Source of the DNA: Limnoperna fortunei
Lineage: Eukaryota; Mollusca; Bivalvia; Mytilida; Modiolidae
Reading direction: 5' to 3'
Length of the DNA stretch: 64,000 bases
NCBI GenBank assembly: GCA_944474755.1
Contig: OX104116.1
Span: forward strand, 8,807,547 to 8,871,546
The translations under genes were made by a program, and so were the position numbers. How positions within the stretch are numbered: the first letter of the stretch is position 1; each line of letters opens with the position of its first letter. The notes under the pieces are model-generated. The model saw only the letters and a list, made by a program, of their open reading frames with translations. It made no database searches and had not been told where the DNA came from. Positions 9,201-59,965 of the stretch are shown piece by piece.

Positions 9201-12200
9201 GTCTTTAAATCCAAATAATTAATTAAAGTCAAAGTTGGCATGTTTTGCTGGAGGTTTTTGGCTGACAAATAAAAACTGTTTACTGTGTATGGTCGAGCTT
9301 ATGCTCTTATTGAACATCCCAAAAATTATAATTTTAAATCAACAATAATTTCCTCAAATTATTCAGTACTTTNNNNNNNNNNNNNNNNNNNNNNNNNNNN
9401 NNNNNNNNNNNNNNNNNNNNNNNNNNNNNNNNNNNNNNNNNNNNNNNNNNNNNNNNNNNNNNNNNNNNNNNNNNNNNNNNNNNNNNNNNNNNNNNNNNNN
9501 NNNNNNNNNNNNNNNNNNNNNNNNNNNNNNNNNNNNNNNNNNNNNNNNNNNNNNNNNNNNNNNNNNNNNNNNCGATTTTCAAGTTTTGTTTTTTCAGGCA
9601 AAAAAATCTCCACCAAAATACACCGACCTATACTATGAATTTTAAATTTTAGGATTTTTAGACTTCATTCATAAAAATCTGACATTTTTTTATTTAAATG
9701 TAAACATAAAGAAACAAATTCCTAATTATTTTACAGTGTCAATTTGACTTACACCCTTTACTTAACATATTTTAGAACAAGTGTGGACACAGAAAAATGT
9801 CTCGCCTGCATTCCGCATCAGTAACGAAAATAAATTTCGTCATAAGCATTACGTAAATAGCATTAAATATCAGCAGCAGCCTGTATACAAAATATTGTCA
9901 CCATACCCTGCATAGTTACAGAGGAACTGTCGTAACCCAAAAACATTAACGTAGTCGCTGGACCGTGAAATTGAGGTCAAGGTCAGGTGGAACCTACCAG
10001 ACAGTCATGTACTATTCATCAGCAACCTATCTACCAAATATTGTCATCCTACCATGCGTAGTAACAGGAACTATCGTAACCCAAAAACTTTAACGTAGTT
10101 GCTGGACCTTGAAATTGAGGTCAAGGTCAGGTGACACCTACCAGACAGTCATGTACTAGTCATCAGCAACCTATACACCAAATATTGTCATCCTACCATG
10201 CGTAGTTACAGAGGAACTGTCGTAACCCAAAAACATTAACGTAGTCGCTGGACCGTGAAATTGAGGTCAAGGTCATGTGACATCTACCAGACAGTCATGT
10301 ACTAGTCATCAGCAACCTATACACCAAATATTGTCATCCTACCATGCGTAGTTACAGAGGAACTGTCGTAACCCAAAAACATTAACGTAGTCGCTGGACA
10401 GTGAAATTGAGGTCAAGGTCAGGTGACACCTACCAGACAGTCATGTACTAGTCATCAGCAACCTATACACCAAATATTGTCATCCTACCATGCGTAGTTA
10501 CAGAGGAACTGCCGTAACCCAAAAACTTTAACGTACTCGCTGAACCGTGAAATTGAGGTCAAGTGACACCTACCAGACAGTCATGTACTTGTCATCAGCA
10601 ACCTATACACCAAATATTGTCATCCTACCATGCGTAGTTACAGAGGAACTACTGTCGTAACCCAAAAACTTTAACGTAGTCGTTGGACCGTGAAATTGAG
10701 GTCAAGGTCAGGTGACACCTACCAGACAGTCATGTACTAGTCATCAGCAACCTATACACTAAATATTGTCATCCTACCATGCGTAGTTACAGAGGAACTG
10801 TCGTAACCCAAAAACATTAACGTAGTCGCTGGACCGTGAAATTGAGGTCAAGGTCAGGTGACACCTACCAGACAGTCATGTACTAGTCATCAGCAACCTA
10901 TACACCAAATATTGTCATCCTACCATGCGTAGTTACAGAGGAACTGCCGTAACCCAAAGACTTTAACGTAGTCGCTGAACCGTGAAATTGAGGTCAAGGT
11001 CAGGTGACACCTACCAGACAGTCATGTACTAGTCATCAGCAACCTATACACCAAATATTGTCATCCTACCATGCGTAGTTACAGAGGAACTGTCGTAACC
11101 CAAAAACTTTAACGTAGTGGCTGGACCGTGAAATTGAGGTCAAGGTCAGGTGACACCTACCAGACAGTCATGTACTAGTCATCAGCAACCTATACATCAA
11201 ATATTGTCATCCTACCATGTGTAGTTACAGAGGAACTGTCGTAACCCAAAAACTTTAACGTAGTCGCTGGACCGTGAAATTGAGGTCAAGGTCAGGTGAC
11301 AGGTGACTGACTGGCAAGTACTCATCATAAGCTACCTCTGGACCAAATTTGATGGACCTAGGGCTTGGGCTTACAAATATATGAAGCAAGATGTCAAGTG
11401 TTTACGCCGCCGCCGACAGATTCCCATACATATGTCTCGCCTCCAGCGACTTTCGTCGCAGGCGAGACAAAAACAAGATTTATGCCGGTTTGATTTCTAG
11501 ACAATCGGTCCCCTAGTCAATTCGTCACAGGACGATCTGTCCCCTGGTCGTTCCGTCCCCATGTCTGTCCGGCCCTAGTAAAACCAAGGTAGGTAAAAAA
11601 AAGAATGTAGTAAAATATATTCATAATTCGTATTTTAAGTATGGTAGTACACTGGAATTCACTATTTTGATTGCCAAGTATGCATGCGAATATAGCATGT
11701 TTTGGAATATTTTTAAATAATGCAGAAGCAAATTAAAATGACTTTTTTCTTTATTTTGATGTTACTTCTTCTACGATGGTATGGTTTCATATGTATAAGA
11801 ATTGGCTATTTCTACATTTGATTACTTCTTCAACTAACATGACTAAGGTATGGTTTCATGTGTACGTGTAATTAAATTGTAATTGTTATTTAGTATTGAT
11901 CTTTTTGACACCTGTAATTTGTAACTAACAATTAACATGTGTCAGATAATAGTAATAAAACAGAAGAGACAGTTGAAATTATTTTATGACTTTATAATAT
12001 TTAATAATGATAAAGAATTAAAATACATGTTGCAAACCATTTTATATATCCAAAGATTTGGGGTCCCAATTCGTTTTGAGAAATTCTTTGAGCTAACTGT
12101 CTGTTTTCTTCAAAAATCACTCAAAGTTGTTAGGCAAACAATTTAAACATAATCAAAGTGTAATTACCTCTGTTATCATCATTTAATTGTTTATTTAATT

Positions 12201-36600: not shown

Positions 36601-39600
36601 CTTGAAACGACCAGAATTACTAGTCAGGGATTTTCACCAGATAGCCAGCTGACCTCTCACAATAAAAACTTAATTCCATGAAAAAGCTGAAAGTGGTGTT
36701 ATGGTATTGGACCCATAATTGATGTCCCCGTTTAATTTTATTTTTTGACCAAGAAATACAGCTTTATTAAATCAATGTCTGCTAATTAAAGATACAAATT
36801 AAATATATTGTTTTACCTGAGTCAATGTTTACAGTTTTGAGCAAAAAAGTTGGTAACTCAAATAGTATTTCCTATGTTTGCCGAACATAACCCAGGTCTG
36901 CTCTATTAAAAAACATCCTGGACACCAGATATGATCACGTGGTCAATTGTGGTCCAGATACCTTAAACCCAAACCAAACAATCTTACTATCTTTGCCTTT
37001 TATATTTTTTAGAATAAGAGACCATGGTGCAAAGACAATGATTATCACAAACAGTGATTACAAGTATAGCAATGTAAGTGTTAACAGTGACTATAAGTAT
37101 AGCAATGTAAGTGTTAACAGTGACTACAAGTAAAGCAATGTAAGTGTTAACCAACAGTGATTATAAGTATAGCAATGTAAGTGTTAACAGTGACTACAAG
37201 TATAGCAATGTAATTGTTAAACTGAATACAAGTGTAGCAATGTAAGTGTTAACAGTGACTACAAGTTTAGCAGTGTAAGTGTTAACAAACAGTGACTATA
37301 AGTATAGCAATGTAAGTGTTAACAGTGGCTACAAGTACAGCAGTGTAAGTGTTAACAGTGACTACAAGTAAAGCAATATAAGTGTTAACAAACAGTGACT
37401 ACATGTATAGTAATGTTAGTGTTAACAGTGACTACAAGTGTAGCAATGTAAGTGTTAACAGGGACTACAAGTGTAGCAATGTAAGTGTTAACAGTGACTA
37501 CAAGTGTAGCAATGTAAGTGTTAACAGTGTCTACAAGTGTAGCAATGTAAGTGTTAACAGTGACTACAAGTAAAGCAATGTAAGTGTTAACAGTGACTAC
37601 AAGTGTAGCAATGTAAGTGTTAACAGTGTCTACAAGTGTAGCAATGTAAGTGTTAACAGTGACTACAAGTAAAGCAATGTAAGTGTTAACAGTGACTACA
37701 AGTGTAGCAATGTAAGTGTTAACAGTGACTACAAGTGTAGCAATGTAAGTGTTAACAGTGACTACAAGTGTAGCAATGTAAGTGCAGGGATTTTCCTACC
37801 TTTTTTCAAATGGGGCCTAGGCCCCTGTTAATTGGGAAAATTAAGACGTAAATTCCACAATTGGGAAAAGTCTTAAATATGAATAAAATAAAAACATTGC
37901 TTTCAAACATCAATGTTTTTAACGAAAATGTTTCTTGTATGTAATTTTAGTCATGAATGACAAGATGGAATCTATAAGCGTGACCTGAAAACTGACAAAT
38001 TCAAATAAAAGTTTTCATAAATATTTTGGAAAAGGTTATCAAAATTTACATATGTAGCCAACTGTGCTGACATCATACTCAAAGAGAAAAAATTCCATGA
38101 ATCTTGGTGGAATAAAATAGAAACTGAGTTGCAAACATCAGATTTTACTTTCACTCTCGTTTGTTCTGGGGTCTTAATAAATTATTGGATAAGAACTAAA
38201 TCAGGTATACAAAACTCTAAAAAATTGCATTGCGTTGGCATTTTAGTTTACCCTGATTTTTATGCTAATCGGCATTCAACCGAACCTTCACACCGACCCT
38301 TGTCAAAAGGGTAAAGGTCGGTACGAAAGTTCCATTGAATGCCGATAATAGATGGGTCTAGAGGTGCAAGAAACTCATGATTTTCTATTCACAAAGGCTC
38401 TGGTCAGTATTTAATTTTGTAAAAACAAAATTTCCTAGTTTTGATACAATACGTCGTCGTTCCACGGTAGTATTTCGCATTGTGTATGCCATTTTTAAAC
38501 GTTAATGCAGGCTCACACTTCATTCCAAATGTATTCCTCACACTTATTCTTTTCTAGACAAAGCTATTTGAACCAAAAACAGCCCATATTACTGGACATC
38601 GTAAAAATAAAGTAATTTGTCTTATTTACGGCATACAATTATCTTTCATATTATTGAACAAAGTTCCGCTACTTAAAGACATATCCTACTATTGTTTCTG
38701 CGCATTTTGATTTTAAACGTTATTGTTTCGTAATTCGTTTATGACGTCGTCGTCGTCAAAATTCCGCGAAATTTCCATTTCAATTACCGTACTCTTTATG
38801 AGGTTTTTTATGAGTAAAAAAGCAATACAGCCTTTTAGAATTTGGGAAAAAAACAAAATTAATCACTTTGCAATAGCAAACATACACAAAAAAAGAACTA
38901 TTTTACTTTCGTGATTGTATTCTGCGCTACAAATCTAGAAAAGATATTGCCGTTTATACGAAGAAAAACGCACCCTTTCCTTCCCGCCAATTCTGGCCTA
39001 TACTTATTTTTCTCAAATATTTTTTCCCCTGATTCGGTGACCATATTTTTTTATTTAATCAATTTGGAGAGTAAGTTATCATCTATCTTCTGTGAAAATA
39101 TAGTTTTATTATCATAGGTCAGTTTTTTGCGATCTGCGATTTTGTGTATTCCGAGTGCATAACAAAAATGGCGGGAACGTATTAATTCCACATTTATGCA
39201 CGAAACTTACGTATTTTTAAATAGATTATGGCATAGTTGTTTTCTACATTCAATGAAGCCTTCAAAACAATTTAAGTTGATTCTAACAGTAAACTATGGA
39301 AAAAATATAAATAAAATAACACATAATCCTAGTACCCTAAAACAGATGATACAGATGACGTCATAACTTTTTAATACGGTCGGTGACCACTAATTTTTGT
39401 TAGCTTTATTTAAAGATTTTGTCATAAGGAAAGTTAAGACAAAATATTAAGAAAATATCATATGAAGATCGAATAGTAGGATATGTCCTTAACAAATCTC
39501 AGGGTTTTTTTTTAGTTCCATTAATAAAACCTCTCATTTCAGTTTTTATCGGATATTGAAATTCGAGGTTTCATCTTTAAATGCATTTTCCCGTGCGCAA

Positions 39601-42600
39601 ATTCCGCAAGAAAATCGTGCGGAATGTTTAAGTTAAGTTTGATATGAAAAAAGTTTGTACAACCATGCAAACTGCGCTAAACTTAAAGAAAAATATCTAC
39701 ATTTTCTAAAAATTGTCTTACCTTAGTATATCATGGATTTTTTAAGTCCTGTTTGAAGCTTTATTTGAGGTGTCCCTTAACTCCCATTACATTCAATGGC
39801 TGACCCAATTAAATCTATCTAATGGATCCGTTTTTGACGAAACGAATTTTCCATGTGTTACAATTGTGACAAATTGTATTTGTTCCGCCATTAAATATAA
39901 CTTGATTCCGTAATGCTGATAAAATGTTAAATTCAAAATGTCAGCTCGCAGAAAAATTTCGTCTTGATATTTCAAACAAGGATTACTTAATTCATTGAAA
40001 ACAGGTATAGTCTTTGTGTTTATGTTAGTTTCATGATATTTCAAATGTAAAAATATGCAGAACTTCTGAAAAAATTTTGCTCCGAGAAAAATCAACTGAC
40101 AGATAAAACCTCACATTTCAAATAATAAAAAAAATGTAAAAGTCAGATGAAAATGATAAATATAAACGTGAAATGGGAGGTTTTATGTTATAGAACTAGG
40201 GTTTTTTTATATCATACCGGAATCTGCATTTGGTATAAAACAAGCAAGCTCCAATATAAAACTGGTTGCCGTTATGACTAAAGATACCGGGAACAGTAAT
40301 TATAAACCAATGTTCACGAAGTAATCAGATTTTAAGTTGTTTTAATATTTCGGCTTAGCGTGATTGAAATTATTTTAAGAAACTGGATTACAAAACCTCC
40401 TGAATTGGGAATTTTCACTTTCATAATTGGAAAAAAATATGGGTTTTTGCCTTTGGGAATGGGGCCGAATATCGGCCCTGAAATAAAGGCAGGAAAATCC
40501 CTGAAGTGTTAACAGTGGCTACAAGTAAAGCAGTGTAAGTGTTAACAGTGACTACAAGTATAGCAGTGTAAGTGTTAACAAACAAGGACTACTAGTATAG
40601 CAATGTAAGTGTTAACAGTGACTACAAGCATAGCAATGTAAGTGTTAACAGTGGCTACAAGTAAAGCAGTGTAAGTGTTAACAGTGACTACAAGTATAGC
40701 AGTGTAAGTGTTAACAAACAAGGACTACAAGTATAGCAATGTAAGTGTTAACAGTGACTACAAGTATAGCAGTGTAAGTGTTAACAAACAAGGACTACAA
40801 GTATAGCAATGTAAGTGTTAACAGTTACTACAAGCATAGCAATGTAAGTGTTAACAGTGGCTACAAGTAAAGCAGTGTAAGTGTTAACAGTGACTACAAG
40901 TATAGCAGTGTAAGTGTTAACAAACAAGGACTACAAGTATAGCAATGTAAGTGTTAACAGTGACTACAAGTATAGCAATGTAAGTGTTAACAGTGACTAC
41001 AAGTGTAGCAGTGTAAGTGTTAACAGTGACTACAAGTGTAGCAATGTAAGTGTTAACAGTGACTACAAGTGTAGCAGTGTAAGTGTTAACAAACAGTGAC
41101 TATAAGTATAGCAATGTAAGTGTTAACAGTCGCTACAAGTAAAGCAGTGTAAGTGTTAACAGTGACTACAAGTAAAGCAATGTAAGTGTTAACAAACAGT
41201 GACTAAAAGTATAATAATGTAAGTGTTAACAGTGACTACAAGTGTAGCAATGTAAGTGTTAACAGTAACTACACGTGTAGCAATGTAAGTGTTAACAGTG
41301 GCTACAAGTAAAGCAGTGTAAGTGTTAACAGTGGCTACAAGTAAAGCAGTGTAAGTGTTAACAGTGGCTACAAGTAAAGCAATGTAAGTGTTAACAAACA
41401 GTGACTATAAGTATAGTAATGTAAGTGTTAACAGTAACTACAAGTACAGCAGTGTAAGTGTATATGAAATATCTATTAAAATTTGTAATGTTTTGTCAAT
41501 AAAAAATAGTTGTTTGATCTAGCTGTAAAATTGCTGACAGTGTTAGTAAACCTGATTCACCTATCAATGTTAAAATAACGATTGGAATTTATGATTGGAA
41601 TGCTAAATAGAAATATGCAAGAAACCAACTGTTGTCTTTATAGAGAAATAATTATATCTGATCAGAGTTTCTGTGATTATACTGGAAAATTTTAGCTATT
41701 ATTTGAATTCATAAAGGTGGATGATGTAAGATATTTACCCTTTTTCATATCTAGTTATTGGCATATGACATGTTTTTATTTTGCAGAAAATTATGGAGTA
41801 TTTGCTTGATTTTCCTGAGGTAAGATTTTAGCATTTTTTACGTGTTGACAGGCCGACTCGTACAGATATTTATATCACACCCAGAGTGTGATATTATGTC
41901 TCCGAAGGATCTGTCTTACTGGTATGTTGATAAGATCTGTATATTTAACTTTATATTAGGAATATAATACATTTGTTTTAAACCAGTGTTGTTTGTCTTG
42001 TCTGTCGGTTTTTTGTGTGTGAATTTTCGGTATTTTGTTGTCCTGCCCTTGAGTAACTGTTTTTATATTTTTGTTTGGTTGATCTCCTTTTATTGTTTAT
42101 ATGGTTACCTGGTTTTTAGATATATTCAGCATGAAGACATTTAATCAGTTAGACATTTAGATCTTTTCATAATAAATTTAAAGTAAAATCATTCAGTATA
42201 TTTTCTTATTTACACAGTTGTGTTGGGTTGAGGTTGCCTCAGTGTCCTAGTGGTTAAGGTAGTCATCTAACATTGATCCCTGGCCCTCAGTGTACTAGTG
42301 GTTAAGGTAGTCATCTAACATTGATCCCTGGCCCTCAGTGTACTAGTGGTTAAGGTAGTCATCTAACATTGATCCCTGGCCCTCAGTGTACTAGTGGTTA
42401 AGGTAGTCATCTAACATTGATCCCTGGCCCTCAGTGTACTAGTGGTTAAGGTAGTCATCTAACATTGATCCCTGGCCCTCAGTGTACTAGTGGTTAAGGT
42501 AGTCATCTAACATTGATCCCTGGCCCTCAGTGTCCTAGTGGTTAAGGTAGTCATCTAACATTGATCCCTGGCCCACAGTGTCCTAGTGGTTAAGGTAGTC

Positions 42601-45600
42601 ATCCAACATTGATCCCTGGCCCTCAGTGTACTAGTGGTTAAGGTAGTCATCTAACATTGATCCCTGGCCCACAGTGTCCTAGTGGTTAAGGTAGTCATCT
42701 AACATTGATCCCTGGCCCACAGTGTCCTAGTGGTTAAGGTAGTCATCTAACATTGATCCCTGGCCCTCAGTGTACTAGTGGTTAAGGTAGTCATCTAACA
42801 TTGATCCCTGGCCCTCAGTGTACTAGTGGTTAAGGTAGTCATCTAACATTGATCCCTGGCCCTCAGTGTCCTAGTGGTTAAGGTAGTCATCCAGCATTGA
42901 TCCCTGGCCCTCAGTGTACTGGTGGTTAAGGTAGTCATCTAACATTGATCCCTGGCCCACAGTGTCCTAGTGGTTAAGGTAGTCATCTAACATTGATCCC
43001 TGGCCCTCAGTGTACTAGTGGTTAAGGTAGTCATCTAACATTGATCCCTGGCCCACAGTGTCCTAGTGGTTAAGGTAGTCATCTAACATTGATCCCTGGC
43101 CCACAGTGTCCTAGTGGTTAAGGTAGTCATCTAACATTGATCCCTGGCCCTCAGTGTCCTAGTGGTTAAGGTAGTCATCTAACATTGATCCCTGGCCCTC
43201 AGTGTCCTAGTGGTTAAGGTAGTCATCTAACATTGATCCCTGGCCCTCAGTGTCCTAGTGGTTAAGGTAGTCATCTAACATTGATCCCTGGCCCTCAGTG
43301 TACTAGTGGTTAAGGTAGTCATCTAACATTGATCCCTGGCCCTCAGTGTCCTAGTGGTTAAGGTAGTCATCTAACATTGATCCCTGGCCCTCAGTGTACT
43401 AGTGGTTAAGGTAGTCATCTAACATTGATCCCTGGCCCTCAGTGTCCTAGTGGTTAAGGTAGTCATCTAACATTGATCCCTGGCCATCAGTGTCCTAGTG
43501 GTTAAGGTAGTCATCTAACATTGATCCCTGGCCCACAGTGTCCTAGTGGTTAAGGTAGTCATCTAACATTGATCCCTGGCCCTCAGTGTACTAGTGGTTA
43601 AGGTAGTCATCTAACGTTGATTCCTGGCCCACAGTGTCCTAGTGGTTAAGGTAGTCATCTAACATTGATCCCTGGCCCACAGTGTCCTAGTGGTTAAGGT
43701 AGTCATCTAACATTGATCCCTGGCCCTCAGTGTACTAGTGGTTAAGGTAGTCATCTAACATTGATCCCTGGCCCTCAGTGTCCTAGTGGTTAAGGAAGTC
43801 ATCTAACATTGATCCCTGGCCCTCAGTGTACTAGTGGTTAAGGTAGTCATCTGACATTGATCCCTGGCCCTCAGTGTCCTAGTGGTTAAGGTAGTCATCT
43901 AACATTGATCACTGGCCCTCAGTGTACTAGTGGTTAAGGTAGTCATCTAACATTGATCCCTGGCCCTCAGTGTCCTAGTGGTTAAGGTAGTTATCTAACA
44001 TTGATCCCTGGCCCTCAGTGTACTAGTGGTTAAGGTAGTCATCTAACATTGATCCCTGGCCCTCAGTGTACTAGTGGTTAAGGTAGTCATCTAACATTGA
44101 TCCCTGGCCCACAGTGTCCTAGTGGTTAAGGTAGTCATCTAACATTGATCCCTGGCCCTCAGTGTCCTAGTGGTTAAGGTAGTCATCTAACATTGATCCC
44201 TGGCTTTCAGTGTACTAGTGGTTAAGGTAGTCATCTAACATTGATCTCTGGCCCTCAGTGTCCTAGTGGTTAAGGTAGTCATCTAACATTGATCCCTGGC
44301 CCTCAGTGTCCTACTGGTTAAGGTAGTCATCTAACATTGATCCCTGGCCCTCAGTGTCCTAGTGGTTAAGGTAGTCATCTAACATTGATCCCTGGCCCTC
44401 AGTGTCCTAGTGGTTAAGGTAGTCATCTAACATTGATCCCTGGCCCACAGTGTCCTAGTGGTTAAGGTAGTCATCTAACATTGATCCCTGTCCCTCAGTG
44501 TACTAGTGGTTAAGGTAGTCATCTAACATTGATCCCTGGCCCTCAGTGTACTAGTGGTTAAGGTAGTCATCTAACATTGATCCCTGGCCCACAGTGTCCT
44601 AGTGGTTAAGGTAGTCATCTAACATTGATCCCTGGCCCTCAGTGTACTAGTGGTTAAGGTAGTCATCTAACATTGATCCCTGTCCCACAGTGTCCTAGTG
44701 GTTAAGGTAGTCATCTAACATTGATCCCTGGCCCTCAGTGTCCTAGTGGTTAAGGTAGTCATCTAACATTGATCCCTGGCCCTCAGTGTCCTAGTGGTTA
44801 AGGTAGTCATCTAACATTGATCCCTGGCCCTCAGTGTACTAGTGGTTAAGGTAGTCATCTAACATTGATCCCTGTCCCACAGTGTCCTAGTGGTTAAGGT
44901 AGTCATCTAACATTGATCCCTGGCCCTCAGTGTCCTAGTGGTTAAGGTAGTCATCTAACATTGATCCCTGTCCCACAGTGTCCTAGTGGTTAAGGTAGTC
45001 ATCTAACATTGATCCCTGGCCCTCAGTGTCCTAGTGGTTAAGGTAGTCATCTAACATTGATCCATGGCTTTCAGTGTACTAGTGGTTAAGGTAGTCATCT
45101 AACATTGATCCCTGGCCCTCAGTGTACTAGTGGTTAAGGTAGTCATCTAACATTGATCCCTGGCCCACAGTGTCCTAGTGGTTAAGGTAGTCATCTAACA
45201 TTGATCCCTGGCCCTCAGTGTCCTAGTGGTTAAGGTAGTCATCTAACATTGATCCCTGGCCCACAGTGTCCTAGTGGTTAAGGTAGTCATCTAACATTGA
45301 TCCCTGGCCCTCAGTGTACTAGTGGTTAAGGTAGTCATCTAACATTGATCCCTGGCCCTCAGTGTACTAGTGGTTAAGGTAGTCATCTAACATTGATCCC
45401 TGGGCCTCAGTGTCCTAGTGGTTAAGGTAGTCATCTAACATTGATCCCTGGCCCTCAGTGTCCTAGTGGTTAAGGTAGTCATCTAACATTGATCCCTGGC
45501 CCTCAGTGTCCTAGTGGTTAAGGTAGTCATCTAACATTGATCCCTGGCCCTCAGTGTCCTAGTGGTTAAGGTAGTCATCTAACATTGATCCCTGGCCCAC

Positions 45601-48600
45601 AGTGTCCTAGTGGTTAAGGTAGTCATCTAACATTGATCCCTGGCCCTCAGTGTCCTAGTGGTTAAGGTAGTCATCTAACATTGATCCCTGGCCCACAGTG
45701 TCCTAGTGGTTAAGGTAGTCATCTAACATTGATCCCTGGCCCTCAGTGTCCTAGTGGTTAAGGTAGTCATCTAACATTGATCCCTGTCCCTCAGTGTCCT
45801 AGTGGTTAAGGTAGTCATCTAACATTGATCCCTGGCCCTCAGTGTCCTAGTGGTTAAGGTAGTCATCTAACATTGATCCCTGGCCCTCAGTGTCCTAGTG
45901 GTTAAGGTAGTCATCTAACATTGATCCCTGGCCCTCAGTGTCCTAGTGGTTAAGGTAGTCATCTAACATTGATCCCTGGCCCTCAGTGTACTAGTGGTTA
46001 AGGTAGTCATCTAACATTGATCCCTGGCCCTCAGTGTCCTAGTGGTTAAGGTAGTCATCTAACATTGATCCCTGGCCCACAGTGTCCTAGTGGTTAAGGT
46101 AGTCATCTAACATTGATCCCTGGCCCTCAGTGTACTAGTGGTTAAGGTAGTCATCTAACATTGATCCCTGGCCCACAGTGACCTAGTGGTTAAGGTAGTC
46201 ATCTAACATTGATCCCTGGCCCTCAGTGTACTAGTGGTTAAGGTAGTCATCTAACATTGATCCCTGGCCCTCAGTGTCCTAGTGGTTAAGGTAGTCATCT
46301 AACATTGATCCCTGGCCCTCAGTGTACTAGTGGTTAAGGTAGTCATCTAACATTGATCCCTGGCCCACAGTGTCCTAGTGGTTAAGGTAGTCATCTAACA
46401 TTGATCCCTGGCCCACAGTGTCCTAGTGGTTAAGGTAGTCATCTAACATTGATCCCTGGCCCACAGTGTCCTAGTGGTTAAGGTAGTCATCTAACATTGA
46501 TCTCTGGCCCTCAGTGTCCTAGTGGTTAAGGTAGTCATCTAACATTGATCCCTGGCCCTCAGTGTCCTAGTGGTTAAGGTAGTCATCTAACATTGATCCC
46601 TGGCCCTCAGTGTACTAGTGGTTAAGGTAGTTATCTAACATTGATCCCTGGCCCTCAGTGTACTAGTGGTTAAGGTAGTCATCTAACATTGATCCCTGGC
46701 CCTCAGTGTCCTAGTGGTTAAGGTAGTCATCTAACATTGATCCCTGGCCCTCAGTGTACTAGTGGTTAAGGTAGTCATCTAACATTGATCCCTGGCCCTC
46801 AGTGTCCTAGTGGTTAAGGTAGTCATCTAACATTGATCCCTGGCCCTCAGTGTACTAGTGGTTAAGGTAGTCATCTAACATTGATCCCTGGCCCTCAGTG
46901 TACTAGTGGTTAAGGTAATCATCTAACATTGATCCCTGGCCCTCAGTGTACTAGTGGTTAAGGTAGTCATCTAACATTGATCCCTGGCCCTCAGTGTACT
47001 AGTGGTTAAGGTAGTTATCTAACATTGATCCCTGGCCCTCAGTGTACTAGTGGTTAAGGTAGTCATCTAACATTGATCCCTGGCCCTCAGTGTACTAGTG
47101 GTTAAGGTAGTCATCTAACATTGATCCCTGGCCCACAGTGTCCTAGTGGTTAAGGTAGTCATCTAACATTGATCCCTGGCCCTCAGTGTCCTAGTGGTTA
47201 AGGTAGTCATCTAACATTGATCCCTGGCCCTCAGTGTACTAGTGGTTAAGGTAGTCATCTAACATTGATCCCTGGCCCTCAGTGTACTAGTGGTTAAGGT
47301 AGTCATCTAACATTGATCCCTGGCCCTCAGTGTCCTAGTGGTTAAGGTAGTCATCTAACATTGATCCCTGGCCCTCAGTGTACTAGTGGTTAAGGTAGTC
47401 ATCTAACATTGATCCCTGGCCCACAGTGTCCTAGTGGTTAAGGTAGTCATCTAACATTGATCCCTGGCCCACAGTGTCCTAGTGGTTAAGGTAGTCATCT
47501 AACATTGATCCCTGGCCCTCAGTGTACTAGTGGTTAAGGTAGTCATCTAACATTGATCCCTGGCCCTCAGTGTACTAGTGGTTAAGGTAGTCATCCAACA
47601 TTGATCCCTGGCCCTCAGTGTACTAGTGGTTAAGTTAGTCATCTAAGATTGATCCCTGGCCCTCAGTGTACTAGTGGTTAAGGTAGTCATCCAACATTGA
47701 TCCCTGGCCCTCAGTGTCCTAGTGGTTAAGGTAGTCATCTAACATTGATCCCTGGCCCTCAGTGTCCTAGTGGTTAAGGTAGTCATCTAATATTGATCCC
47801 TGGCCCTCAGTGTACTAGTGGTTAAGGTAGTCATCTAACATTGATCCCTTGCAAGTCAGCCCTAAGATTGTTTGAGTCTGACTTTGGGCAGAGTGTGCTT
47901 GATTCCAACTTAGCCTGACTTTGGCAGGGTGTGCTTGATTCCAACTTAGTCTGACTTTGGGCAGGGTGTGCTTGATTCCAACCTAGTCTGACTTTGGGCA
48001 GGGTGTGCTTGGTTCCAACTTAGTCGGACTTTGGGCAGAGTGCGCTTGGTTCCAACTTAGTCGGACTTTGGGCAGGGTATGCTTGATTCCAACTTAGTCT
48101 GACTTTGGGCAGGGTGAGCTTGATTCCTACTTAGTCTGACTTTGGGCAGGGTGAGCTTGACTCCAACTTAGTCTGACTTTGGGCAGGGTGAGCTTGACTC
48201 CAACTTAGTCTGACTTTGGGCAGGGTGAGCTTGATTCCAACTTAGTCTAACTTTGGGCAGGGTGTGCTTGCATGACTCCAACTTTAAGTTATACTGCTAG
48301 TTTTCCTATCAAATTTTGAGGGTTTCACCTAAAATTAGGAAACCGTTATATAGCGGAAAGTGACATATAACTCGTATTAAAAACAAAACAAAATCCTCTG
48401 TTATAAGTGTAATGTTTATAAAGATATGTGCTGAGATAACTTATGTTAAGAGAATACTCTTGATTGGTGATTAATGTTAAATATGCAGGATATGTTTTCT
48501 TTGACAGTAGGAAAGTAGGAAATTGTGACAAAAATTAGGTTCTTAGAATGGTGTTTTACTACATACATTTTTCAATTCAATACTGGCCATTAACTTTAAC

Positions 48601-51600: not shown

Positions 51601-54600
51601 CCTTTTTAGCTCACCTGACCCAAGGGGTTAGTGTGAGCAATTCTCATGACTTTGCATCCGTCGTTGTTATCGTCATCGTCGTCAGCTGAAATTTGACAGG
51701 AATGTTTATTGGGTGGTTCTTAACAAAGTTTGAAGTTTTTGGTGCTGATTAAATATTAAACATGGCTGCTAGGGCCATTTATGAATTCTGATTGGCTGAA
51801 TTTCAAAAATCTTCTAATCATAAACTGGTTGGCAGATTGATTTGAAATATTGCAGAAATGGTCCATTACAAAGTTTGAGTTTTTTTTTTGCCTATCCAAA
51901 ATCCAAGATGGCTACATCGATGGACTTAACATTGGACCCTATGGGAAAAACATACAAACAACTTCTTTTTAGAAACTGTCACACAATGAAACCAAATTAT
52001 GAAGAAATGAAGGTTTGATAGTTATCTTATTATTTTGAGTTTACAAATTCAATATGGCTTCCACTGCCACTAATGCGTTCTTATTGGTTGAAATTTAAAA
52101 AATCTTCTTCTTACAAACTGCTTGGCAGATTGATTTGAAATATTGCAGCAATGTGCCTTAGAAAGTCCTTTGCAAAGTTTGAGTTTTGAGCTAATCCAAA
52201 ATCCAAGATTACCACTACCTTGGAACACAGCTTAACATAGGACCCTATGGGAGAACCATAAAAACAGCTTCTTCTCTGAAACTGTTCCACAGAGTTATAT
52301 TAAATAATGAAGAAGTGAACCTTGGACAGTATTCTTAGTAGAGTTTTTCGAGTCAATAGGAAATTTAGGCTGCCAGAGCTGCAAATGCATTCTGATTGGC
52401 TGAAATTTCTAAATTTGTTTTCTCACAAACTGCTTAGCATAAGGAATTTTGAAATTTGTAGAAATGTACCTCAGATGGTACTCAACTAATTTTGAGCTTT
52501 TTGTTTCAATTTAAAATACATGATTGCTTCCACCATGAAACATCACTTTACATAGGAACCTATGAGAAAAACATAAAATAACTTCTTCTCAGAAACTGTC
52601 CTACAAATTGCCGCATTAATACAGCACAAGTATTAAAAATAATTAAACAGATTTTTTTTATATATATCAGTTTTCTCATCTCAATGTTCACAATCACAAT
52701 GACCTATTCTCAATGTTATCTTGTCTGGGGGCAGCTTTTTGACTGAAAAATGTGCTTCTCCTCCTAAACCCCTGGACAGATTTTGATGAAACTTTACATG
52801 AAGGAAGTACATCATATGTAGATGTGCATGAAGAATTTTCGCTGCTGTCGGATATTATTCAGGGGAGATAAATGGACTTGAAGCGAAGCGGGGGGTATCC
52901 CTTTGTGAGCTTGCTCACAGTCCACACTTGTTTATTTTTGATAGAGCATTTTTCTGTAGTAAAGTTTGACCTAAATTACAATGGAAGTTTATGTTTGGGA
53001 GAGTTGTCTATTTGAAATCCTTCTAGTAATGTTGTCTGCAGATAAGGCAGGAAAAGTCTGCTGTTTGTCTGAATACCATTGATCGTTACGAAAACGGACC
53101 ATCTTTTTGAAAACGCTAGGTCCCTTTAGAAACTCAAATGGCTGACTTTCTATGTTAAATTCCAGTAGCAAAATGTCAAGGACAATTTCGGAAATGTCAA
53201 CAACAAAGGCATAATATAAAATATGGACATGTAATTGTGTAAAATATTTTAAAATTGGATTATAGTACTATAAAGGTACTGTATGGAATAATAAAAAACG
53301 CTAGGCGCAAGGGGTTGTAACTTTTAGTATAGTTTTAAAACCTTACGGAACATTAACCAACAATTATTCTCTCATGTATATAAAACGTATTCTGTAAACA
53401 GGTTCCGTTGAAGTCATATCAGAATTAATAGGAGCCAAGGGAAAGGATGTTCTGTATGTGGGAGACCATATATTCGGTGATATACTACGATCCAAGAAAG
53501 AGCATGGCTGGAGAACTTTCCTGGTTGTCCCTGAAATGTCCCAAGAACTCAAAGTATGGACAGAACAAAAAAGTCTGTTTGACAAAATAGAATTATTAGA
53601 GTGTGAAATGGCAGACTCGTACAGGTATTTATATATCCCAAAGCATCTTGTCCATCATCTCTATAATTGTTATAACTCAAGACATTTGTCCATAATTGGT
53701 ATACTGAAAATTTTGTATGTTCCCTTTATGTAAATTATATAAACAATTATCTTTCTTTAGCTTATTTTAATTCAGTATTGATAATTTGCTAAGTGGAGTT
53801 AACTGCTCATTTTTTATTCACCATTACATAGATGTGAATGTTTTGAGTCATACTTACAACCCTATACTGAATGAGGAAAAATTCATGTTACAAAAAAGCT
53901 TAACTGTTAAATAAAATTAACAACAAAATCAGCAGCTAATTGCAAAGTTTGTTTTAATATTTTAGGAATCTTGACAGCAGCACAAGAGAGATACCAGACA
54001 TATCAAAACAGAAAAGGTTGATGATGGTAAATATATTTTTAAAATATTGTCACATATCTTCTCCTGTGTGAATATTATTTAGCACCACTTTCTGTAATTT
54101 TTCATATATATTATGAAGTCTAATATTTTATTGGGTAATGAAGCCAGAGTACCTGGAGGAAACCACTGACATTTGGTATATTTTTGGCCAGATTTCACGG
54201 AGTCCGGAGTGAAAATCCGGGTTATAAAATGGTGAATGTTGGGTGTGCGGGCAGGGAAAAAATTTTCGTAACAGTTTTCTCAGCAACTACTAATCACAGC
54301 CTCTTGATATTTGGTATCTAGCATCAGCATGGGGTCCCATACCGGGGGATTTTATTTCAGGTCTGTCGCTCACCTACTTCATGTTAACAGGCTTAGTTAA
54401 TTTTTAACATTTATGTTCAATGGTAGAAAATTTTAGTAACAGTTTTCTCAGCAACAACTAATCACATTCTCTTGAAATTTGGTATGCAACATCAGCATGG
54501 GCTCCCATAACATGGGATTCTATTTCATGACTGTCGCTCACCTACTTCCTGTTTAACGAAATCCAGCCATTTTTGTCTTTGATTGATTTTCTTGTATTTA

Positions 54601-59558: not shown

Positions 59559-59652
59559 AGTCCTGAACATGTAGCCTATCTGGACATTAGTTTGATCTTT
59601 TTCTTTATTATATAAAGATTCCTAATTCGTGCACTAGTGCCTAAGAAGCTAT

Positions 59653-59965
59653 TTATTATTGTGCCTATAGTAGAAGCTATTGTTAAAAAACCATTTTTGT
59701 TTTGCCTGTATCAGAAGTTGTAACAAAGATGCCATTTTTGTTTTACCTGTAGTAGAAGTTATAACAAAGATGCCATTTTTGTTTTGTCTGTAGTAGAAGT
59801 TATAACAAAGATGCCATTTTTGTTTTGTCTGTAGTAGAAGTTGTAACAAAGATGCCATTTTTGTTTTGCCTGTAGTAGAAGTTGTAACAAAGATGCCATT
59901 TTTGTTTTGCCTGTAGTAGAAGTTATAATAAAGATACTATTTATTATTTGCCTAGAGTAGAAAGC
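59653..59965. repeat. 41-bp minisatellite, ~7 copies
   Basis: Unit gtagtagaagttgtaacaaa gatgccatttttgttttgcct; the reverse strand is open in rotating frames, producing misleading ORFs (59649-59968). Confidence 0.93.

Follow-up and report, generated by a model that had tools for sequence, protein, structure and literature searches.

Gene model and host exon

A 64,000-nucleotide window of the Limnoperna fortunei genome (contig OX104116.1, positions 8,807,547 to 8,871,546) contains the gene NT5C2, one exon of which runs directly into a minisatellite whose repeat unit includes that exon's own splice donor. All positions given below are those of the window. Sixteen NT5C2 coding exons were found, in phase, between 23612 and 56851. 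They were located with the human NT5C2 protein sequence and then refined using GT-AG boundaries and phase. The predicted product is one open frame of 524 residues and a stop. It aligns with human cytosolic purine 5'-nucleotidase (cN-II; 6fxh_A) over 514 residues (E 1.3e-198), which bears out the gene identity proposed in the initial annotation. The first coding part of the gene, approximately 34 residues in human, was not found in the exon search of the window.

The exon that adjoins the array is 61 nucleotides long and is the eighth found in the window (exon 9 in the numbering of the initial annotation). Its junction with the intron reads AGCAAT/gtaagtgtt, where the slash marks the boundary. 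The upstream intron is 531 nucleotides in length and the downstream intron is 4713. The alignment of the window and human proteins has no gap at this junction, where the human side reads TNSDYKYTDKIMTYL. The end of the exon is taken here to belong to HAD motif II. The two exons that flank the array are as follows.

37013 to 37073, plus strand: NT5C2 coding exon of 61 nucleotides, ending AAACAGTGATTACAAGTATAGCAAT and coding ..TNSDYKYSN (GT-AG boundaries, phase, gapless alignment with human cN-II)
41787 to 41819, plus strand: next NT5C2 exon, 33 nucleotides (11 residues; GT-AG boundaries, phase, human alignment)

Anatomy of the donor array

The tandem unit is 33 bp in length and is composed of the last 24 bases of the exon and the first nine bases of the intron (gtaagtgtt). 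Counted by donor position, 50 units bear a donor, including the real exon end; 22 lie before an insert that splits the array and 28 lie after it. Tandem Repeats Finder reports two arrays of period 33, at 37050-37784 and 40504-41461. These can be divided into three segments.

37050 to 37082, plus strand: copy 1, the last 24 exon bases and gtaagtgtt; the true donor starts at 37074
37083 to 37784, plus strand: left part of the array, copies 2-22 (Tandem Repeats Finder, donor positions)
40504 to 41461, plus strand: right part of the array, copies 23-50 (Tandem Repeats Finder, donor positions)

The units lie head to tail and their length falls within the roughly 10-100 bp of a minisatellite. Minisatellites commonly, though not necessarily, differ in copy number from one individual to another; no second allele is among the matches listed for the one assembly. 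The array adjoins the exon and the unit contains that exon's donor, the identity of the donor being set by the gene model. Of the 33 bases of copy 1, one departs from the array consensus: the exon has GAT there and the consensus GAC; copy 4 also has GAT. The earlier proposal that the unit is the exon end plus its donor is therefore upheld. The sequence GTAAGTG is exact in 47 of the 50 units, the exceptions being copies 5, 10, and 11. The initial annotation had stated that 47 of about 50 copies keep it, which is correct with the true donor counted; for the extra copies alone the figure is 46 of 49. Over the window and both strands GTAAGTG occurs 52 times, against 9.75 expected (100 shuffles, standard deviation 2.99, largest 19). 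The last copy (50) runs into gtaagtgtatatgaaa, which is possibly the old start of the intron.

Within the two halves there are 48 donor-to-donor intervals, 37 of which are 33 bases, 10 are 37 bases, and one is 32 bases. The 37-base intervals owe their length to four additional bases within the run AACAAACAG, which is AACCAACAG in copy 4. Because the exon itself also reads ACAAACAG just upstream, this longer form may be the older one; alternatively, it may be a local duplication of AACA. The mean pairwise difference between units is 9.7% in an ungapped comparison, and the mismatch to copy 1 shows a weak rise with position in the array (Spearman 0.27, P 0.06, 49 copies). Higher-order patterns are unlike between the halves: copies 14-19 show a 3-unit, 99-bp pattern, and the right half shows periods of 103 and 136 bp. 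Local homogenisation would produce such differences.

A loose fuzzy search of the window listed 53 matches. Three are outside the array (21798, 36798, and 54162); each has nine substitutions and two indels, and they were discarded as chance.

Insert splitting the array

The initial annotation treated 37050 to 41460 as one continuous run of repeats. Its outer boundaries hold, and the 2719 bp between the two halves, which it overlooked, are not repeat. The insert and its flanks are listed here.

37780 to 37784, plus strand: left target-site duplication AAGTG (sequence read, flank join)
37785 to 40503, no strand assigned: transposon-like insert of 2719 bp with ends CAGGGATTTTCC...GGAAAATCCCTG
40504 to 40508, plus strand: right target-site duplication AAGTG (sequence read, flank join)

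The termini of the insert are 22-nucleotide inverted repeats that are 91% complementary. It looks like a non-autonomous DNA transposon. A Pfam scan of six of the 18 open reading frames listed over the insert gave no match, hence no transposase among those six. Removing the insert and one AAGTG brings back a continuous array in 33-bp register, so the insert arrived after the array existed. The insert also holds 10 of the 11 AATAAA signals of the intron, against 6.2 in shuffles (standard deviation 2.5).

Origin of the array

The unit was found at one locus. An exact pattern search of the 1.335-Gb assembly gave 14 matches, all 14 of them inside this array. A DNA search of the assembly, which passes over very frequent words and scores the top candidates only, gave eight matches, and all eight are also inside this array. 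The same exact pattern had no matches in viral contigs and none in prokaryotic contigs, as expected, and this result carries little weight. Occurrence at many unrelated loci, which the initial annotation had named as the mark of a dispersed satellite, was thus not observed in the assembly searches.

A second, diverged NT5C2-like gene is present on the same contig near 55.73-55.81 Mb. The 20 matches listed by the protein search all lie in the NT5C2 gene of the window or in this one paralogue, and no second allele is among them. The paralogue exon corresponding to the 61-nucleotide exon was found with a short query as a weak match (E 0.43, 54% identity) that sits in order between stronger matches of the paralogue. 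It ends ACAAACAGTGATTATACATACACTAAT/gtaagttgt and has the same reading frame and donor position as the 61-nucleotide exon. The 3072 bases examined around it contain no such array; they contain a 54-bp repeat of four copies further on and a 21-bp repeat of approximately two copies.

No array accompanies this exon end and donor position in the examined bases of the paralogue, and on this comparison the array came from the exon. The simplest reading, and the most likely one, takes the exon end and donor as source and the array as product, as the initial annotation had supposed. Over 33 bases the paralogue exon end has eight differences from copy 1 and nine from the array consensus. It shares GAT with copy 1, so the GAC of the consensus is probably the derived state.

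Potential of the repeated donors

The duplex energy of donor 1 with U1 is -7.3 kcal/mol, which is middling among the 15 donors of the gene (-3.8 to -10.7 kcal/mol). The 49 extra copies can be sorted into 30 with the same 11-mer as donor 1, 15 with a slightly better AGT form (-8.3 kcal/mol), and four that are weaker. By this simple duplex energy, pairing is equal to or better than that of the true donor in 45 of the 49, in agreement with the earlier description of a long run of competing candidate donors.

The products of these donors differ. Use of donor 2 would add 11 residues in an open frame. Every product of donors 3-50 includes a stop, so that donors 1 and 2 are the only two of the 50 that remain open in frame. 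The first such stop is located in copy 3.

37131 to 37133, plus strand: TAA of copy 3, in frame and present in every product of donors 3-50

The initial annotation had argued that the first donor must be used to keep the length of the protein. This is right for length; donor 2 also leaves the frame open, with 11 residues added. Skipping of the 33-nucleotide next exon would likewise keep the frame, with 11 residues lost.

Concealment of the false donors by RNA structure was considered and found no support. Predicted local accessibility is low over the extra copies (mean 0.019 for the 49, against 0.066 over the segment), and donor 1 ranks 10 of 50. A 300-nucleotide stretch of the array folds slightly worse than its shuffles (z 1.65), 193 of 200 shuffles being at least as stable. 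As to the U1 sink proposed in the initial annotation, it is unlikely that 50 sites on one pre-mRNA would deplete the nucleus of U1.

Other repeats in the window and on the contig

Arrays were counted in the window and in twenty 10-kb control stretches of the same contig under one rule (period at least 15, at least three copies). The controls contain 14 arrays covering 9.7% of bases, and about half of this coverage comes from one stretch that is all satellite (L011 1-10000; 37-bp unit, approximately 269 copies). In the window the rule gives 12 arrays between 9870 and 57642 (11 with the split one joined), covering 19.7%, about twice the control value; it drops one further array at 59643-59962. 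With minisatellites so abundant in the genome, an array starting at an exon boundary is on its own no surprise. A motif of the GTRAGT type in at least half of the units was found in 1 of the 14 control arrays, which has a 342-bp unit. GTAAGT on either strand is present in only two of the 12 window arrays inspected, namely the two halves of the donor array.

A 146-bp tandem unit at 9870-11301 of the window and another in a control stretch approximately 3 Mb away (L019 5999-6559) share the first 60 bases of their consensus. Its presence at both places marks the 146-bp unit as dispersed, in contrast to the donor array. The next intron of NT5C2 contains approximately 117 copies of a 48-bp unit at 42237-47849, with 96% matches. 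Part of this unit presumably resembles the D-arm region of a tRNA; ARAGORN found no tRNA in the window, and Rfam gave no match in the window at gathering scores.

A further resemblance to an exon end was observed just inside the intron that follows the 33-nucleotide exon. At 41855-41875, 20 of 21 bases agree with a later NT5C2 exon end and its donor (53614-53634). The sequence in question is GACTCGTACAG/GTATTTATAT, with A replacing the G of the donor. The 21-nucleotide motif is matched twice in the window, by the exon and by the look-alike, against 0.01 expected. This is a second exon-end look-alike in NT5C2.

Comparison with known systems

The initial annotation regarded a donor turned into a minisatellite as something not described before. 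This does not stand, since two human precedents exist, in ABCA7 (PMC5954066) and in IFI6. Intron 18 of ABCA7 is reported to contain a variable number tandem repeat (VNTR) with a 25-bp unit that starts at the donor GT and is present in about 12 to 427 units (PMC5954066). As in NT5C2, the array is described as directly adjoining the exon and taking in its splice donor. In the tissues compared in that report, retention of one unit was approximately 2% and independent of length, and skipping of the next exon was length-dependent (PMC5954066). The NT5C2 unit differs in being 33 bp and frame-preserving and in carrying 24 coding bases (the last eight codons of the exon), and the NT5C2 array differs in being split by a transposon-like insert. 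The ABCA7 report gives measurements of RNA and a disease association (PMC5954066), whereas the NT5C2 analysis covers DNA.

Other boundary repeats are more distant relatives. Internal tandem repeats at exon-intron boundaries are described in human segmental duplications, in young paralogues, with a mean unit of about 30 bp and an average of four units (PMC2812944). They resemble the NT5C2 array as minisatellite expansions at an exon-intron boundary that change gene structure. According to the same description they may form novel introns, whereas the NT5C2 array has approximately 50 units in an existing intron. The TERT VNTR6-1 is an intronic minisatellite with a 38-bp unit and short and long alleles, and genetic variation has been linked to TERT splicing (PMC11830802). 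The title and the start of the abstract of that report give no indication that its unit includes an exon donor, unlike that of NT5C2.

The process reported as intron gain by tandem duplication is similar in that a duplication across an intron-exon boundary copies the splice signals. It was rejected as a description of this locus, where there is no new intron and the paralogue exon has its donor at the same position.

The minisatellite of the interferon-induced gene IFI6 (6-16, G1P3) has a shorter repeat than that of NT5C2, reportedly 12 bp. It is described as supplying several donors, with two downstream units serving as donors so that three mRNA species arise (Turri et al. 1995). Such use of downstream donors is what gave the known cases their importance; in the NT5C2 array it is a possibility.

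Among the matches listed in searches of the open-licence literature, none describes a donor array at NT5C2 or in a mollusc; this negative is weak, as no search named NT5C2. The NT5C2 array looks like a new member of the donor-containing minisatellites exemplified by ABCA7 and IFI6, and an unusually clean one.

Interpretation

The likely explanation of the array is a minisatellite that arose by tandem duplication of the exon-intron boundary and is tolerated by splicing as a by-product of slippage, with donor 1 being the one used. The process would have started with a duplication of at least 24 exon bases and about nine intron bases. Growth and homogenisation would have followed through slippage or unequal exchange, and a DNA-transposon-like element would later have landed in the array. 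The gene would remain workable, since copy 1 preserves a donor as well as the coding sequence. When the flanking introns are large, the sites that lie nearest each other across an exon are reported to be preferred in splicing (PMC9225289), which predicts donor 1. As the donor nearest to the acceptor, in an exon of 61 nucleotides with 4.7 kb of intron behind it, donor 1 is the one expected to be chosen under exon definition. If splicing leaked to donor 2, 11 residues would enter the protein in frame, just after the presumed HAD motif II stretch. Leakage to later donors would include a stop and probably lead to mRNA decay. The array would then probably have no role of its own.

Several observations weigh against this explanation. 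Strength is no argument for donor 1, as U1 pairing is better in the 15 copies of the AGT form. The upstream intron is only 531 nucleotides long, and the argument from exon definition is therefore not certain. The donor columns of the array are less variable than the exon-derived columns (3 of 350 against 89 of 1200 cells; column permutation P 0.02). A variant shared by at least two copies is present in 0 of 7 donor columns and 11 of 24 exon-derived columns (P 0.029). Copy 6 is one base short and out of register in the full count; with it left out, the counts are 3 of 343 against 84 of 1176 cells (P 0.03), and the test on shared variants is still at 0.029.

As a sign of selection on the donor cores, this pattern is no more than suggestive. 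Variants restricted to a single copy are not rarer in the donor core: leaving copy 6 out, there are 3 in seven columns against 8 in 24 (P 0.76), and including it, 3 in seven against 12 in 24 (P 0.55). The stretch of low variation does not stop at the donor but continues into AACA at the junction. The copies are not independent, and the tests on them are post hoc. For these reasons there is no firm sign of selection, and the variation is not taken here to argue for or against function.

Four other readings were weighed, two of them with a role for the array in the pre-mRNA. It is possible, though doubtful, that the array is a length-dependent modifier of splicing as in ABCA7, where donor 1 is kept, array length shifts skipping of the 33-nucleotide exon and the amount of mRNA, and some one-unit retention occurs. 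The anatomy is the same as that of the ABCA7 VNTR, for which skipping of the next exon is reported to rise and expression to fall with length (PMC5954066), skipping of the 33-nucleotide exon would keep the frame, and in the SMN genes exon inclusion is reported to be influenced by deep-intronic interactions of U1 (PMC11289892). Against this, no second allele is among the 20 protein matches listed, and one-unit retention in ABCA7 is reported not to vary with length (PMC5954066). The array could also be a U1 platform in cis, where bound U1 suppresses premature cleavage and polyadenylation in the intron, including at the AATAAA signals of the insert. The intact GTAAGTG at 47 of 50 sites, the position of 10 of 11 AATAAA within the insert, and the reported ability of U1 at 5' splice-site sequences to suppress polyadenylation (PMC3826338) agree with this. 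It is nonetheless very unlikely: the AATAAA count of the insert is not clearly above that of its shuffles, the insert is younger than the array and cannot explain its growth, and the low predicted accessibility of the donors also counts against it, weakly, as bound proteins are ignored. A broader version is unlikely. It holds that NT5C2 output is tuned in cis by the array, as a natural U1-binding platform of variable length, through inclusion of the 33-nucleotide exon, unproductive donors 3-50, or polyadenylation shielding, and that the donor cores are selected while the coding part of the unit decays.

The remaining two readings were rejected. Expansion of the coding sequence, with each unit adding an 11-residue repeat to the protein, would fit a unit length that is a multiple of three, a consensus that is open in frame, and the open product of donor 2. 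It is highly improbable given that 14 of 49 units stop in their own frame (copy 6 left out), 10 units are shifted by four bases, and a stop is already present in copy 3. A dispersed satellite that merely resembles the donor and landed at the exon by chance would suit a minisatellite-rich genome. It has next to no probability, since the unit is at one locus only in the assembly searches, a result that refutes this reading. The homology moreover runs in register through both the coding bases and the donor, and the paralogue carries the exon end without an array in the bases examined.

The effect of the array on the animal may be nil. The locus offers a natural experiment on how the spliceosome chooses a single donor from approximately 50 near-identical ones that lie a few dozen bases apart. 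Since 30 of the 49 extra copies share the 11-base donor of copy 1 in similar flanks, position is the main difference between them. The array also suggests that conversion of an exon end into a minisatellite need not destroy the gene, which would survive because the copy adjoining the exon stays a valid exon end.

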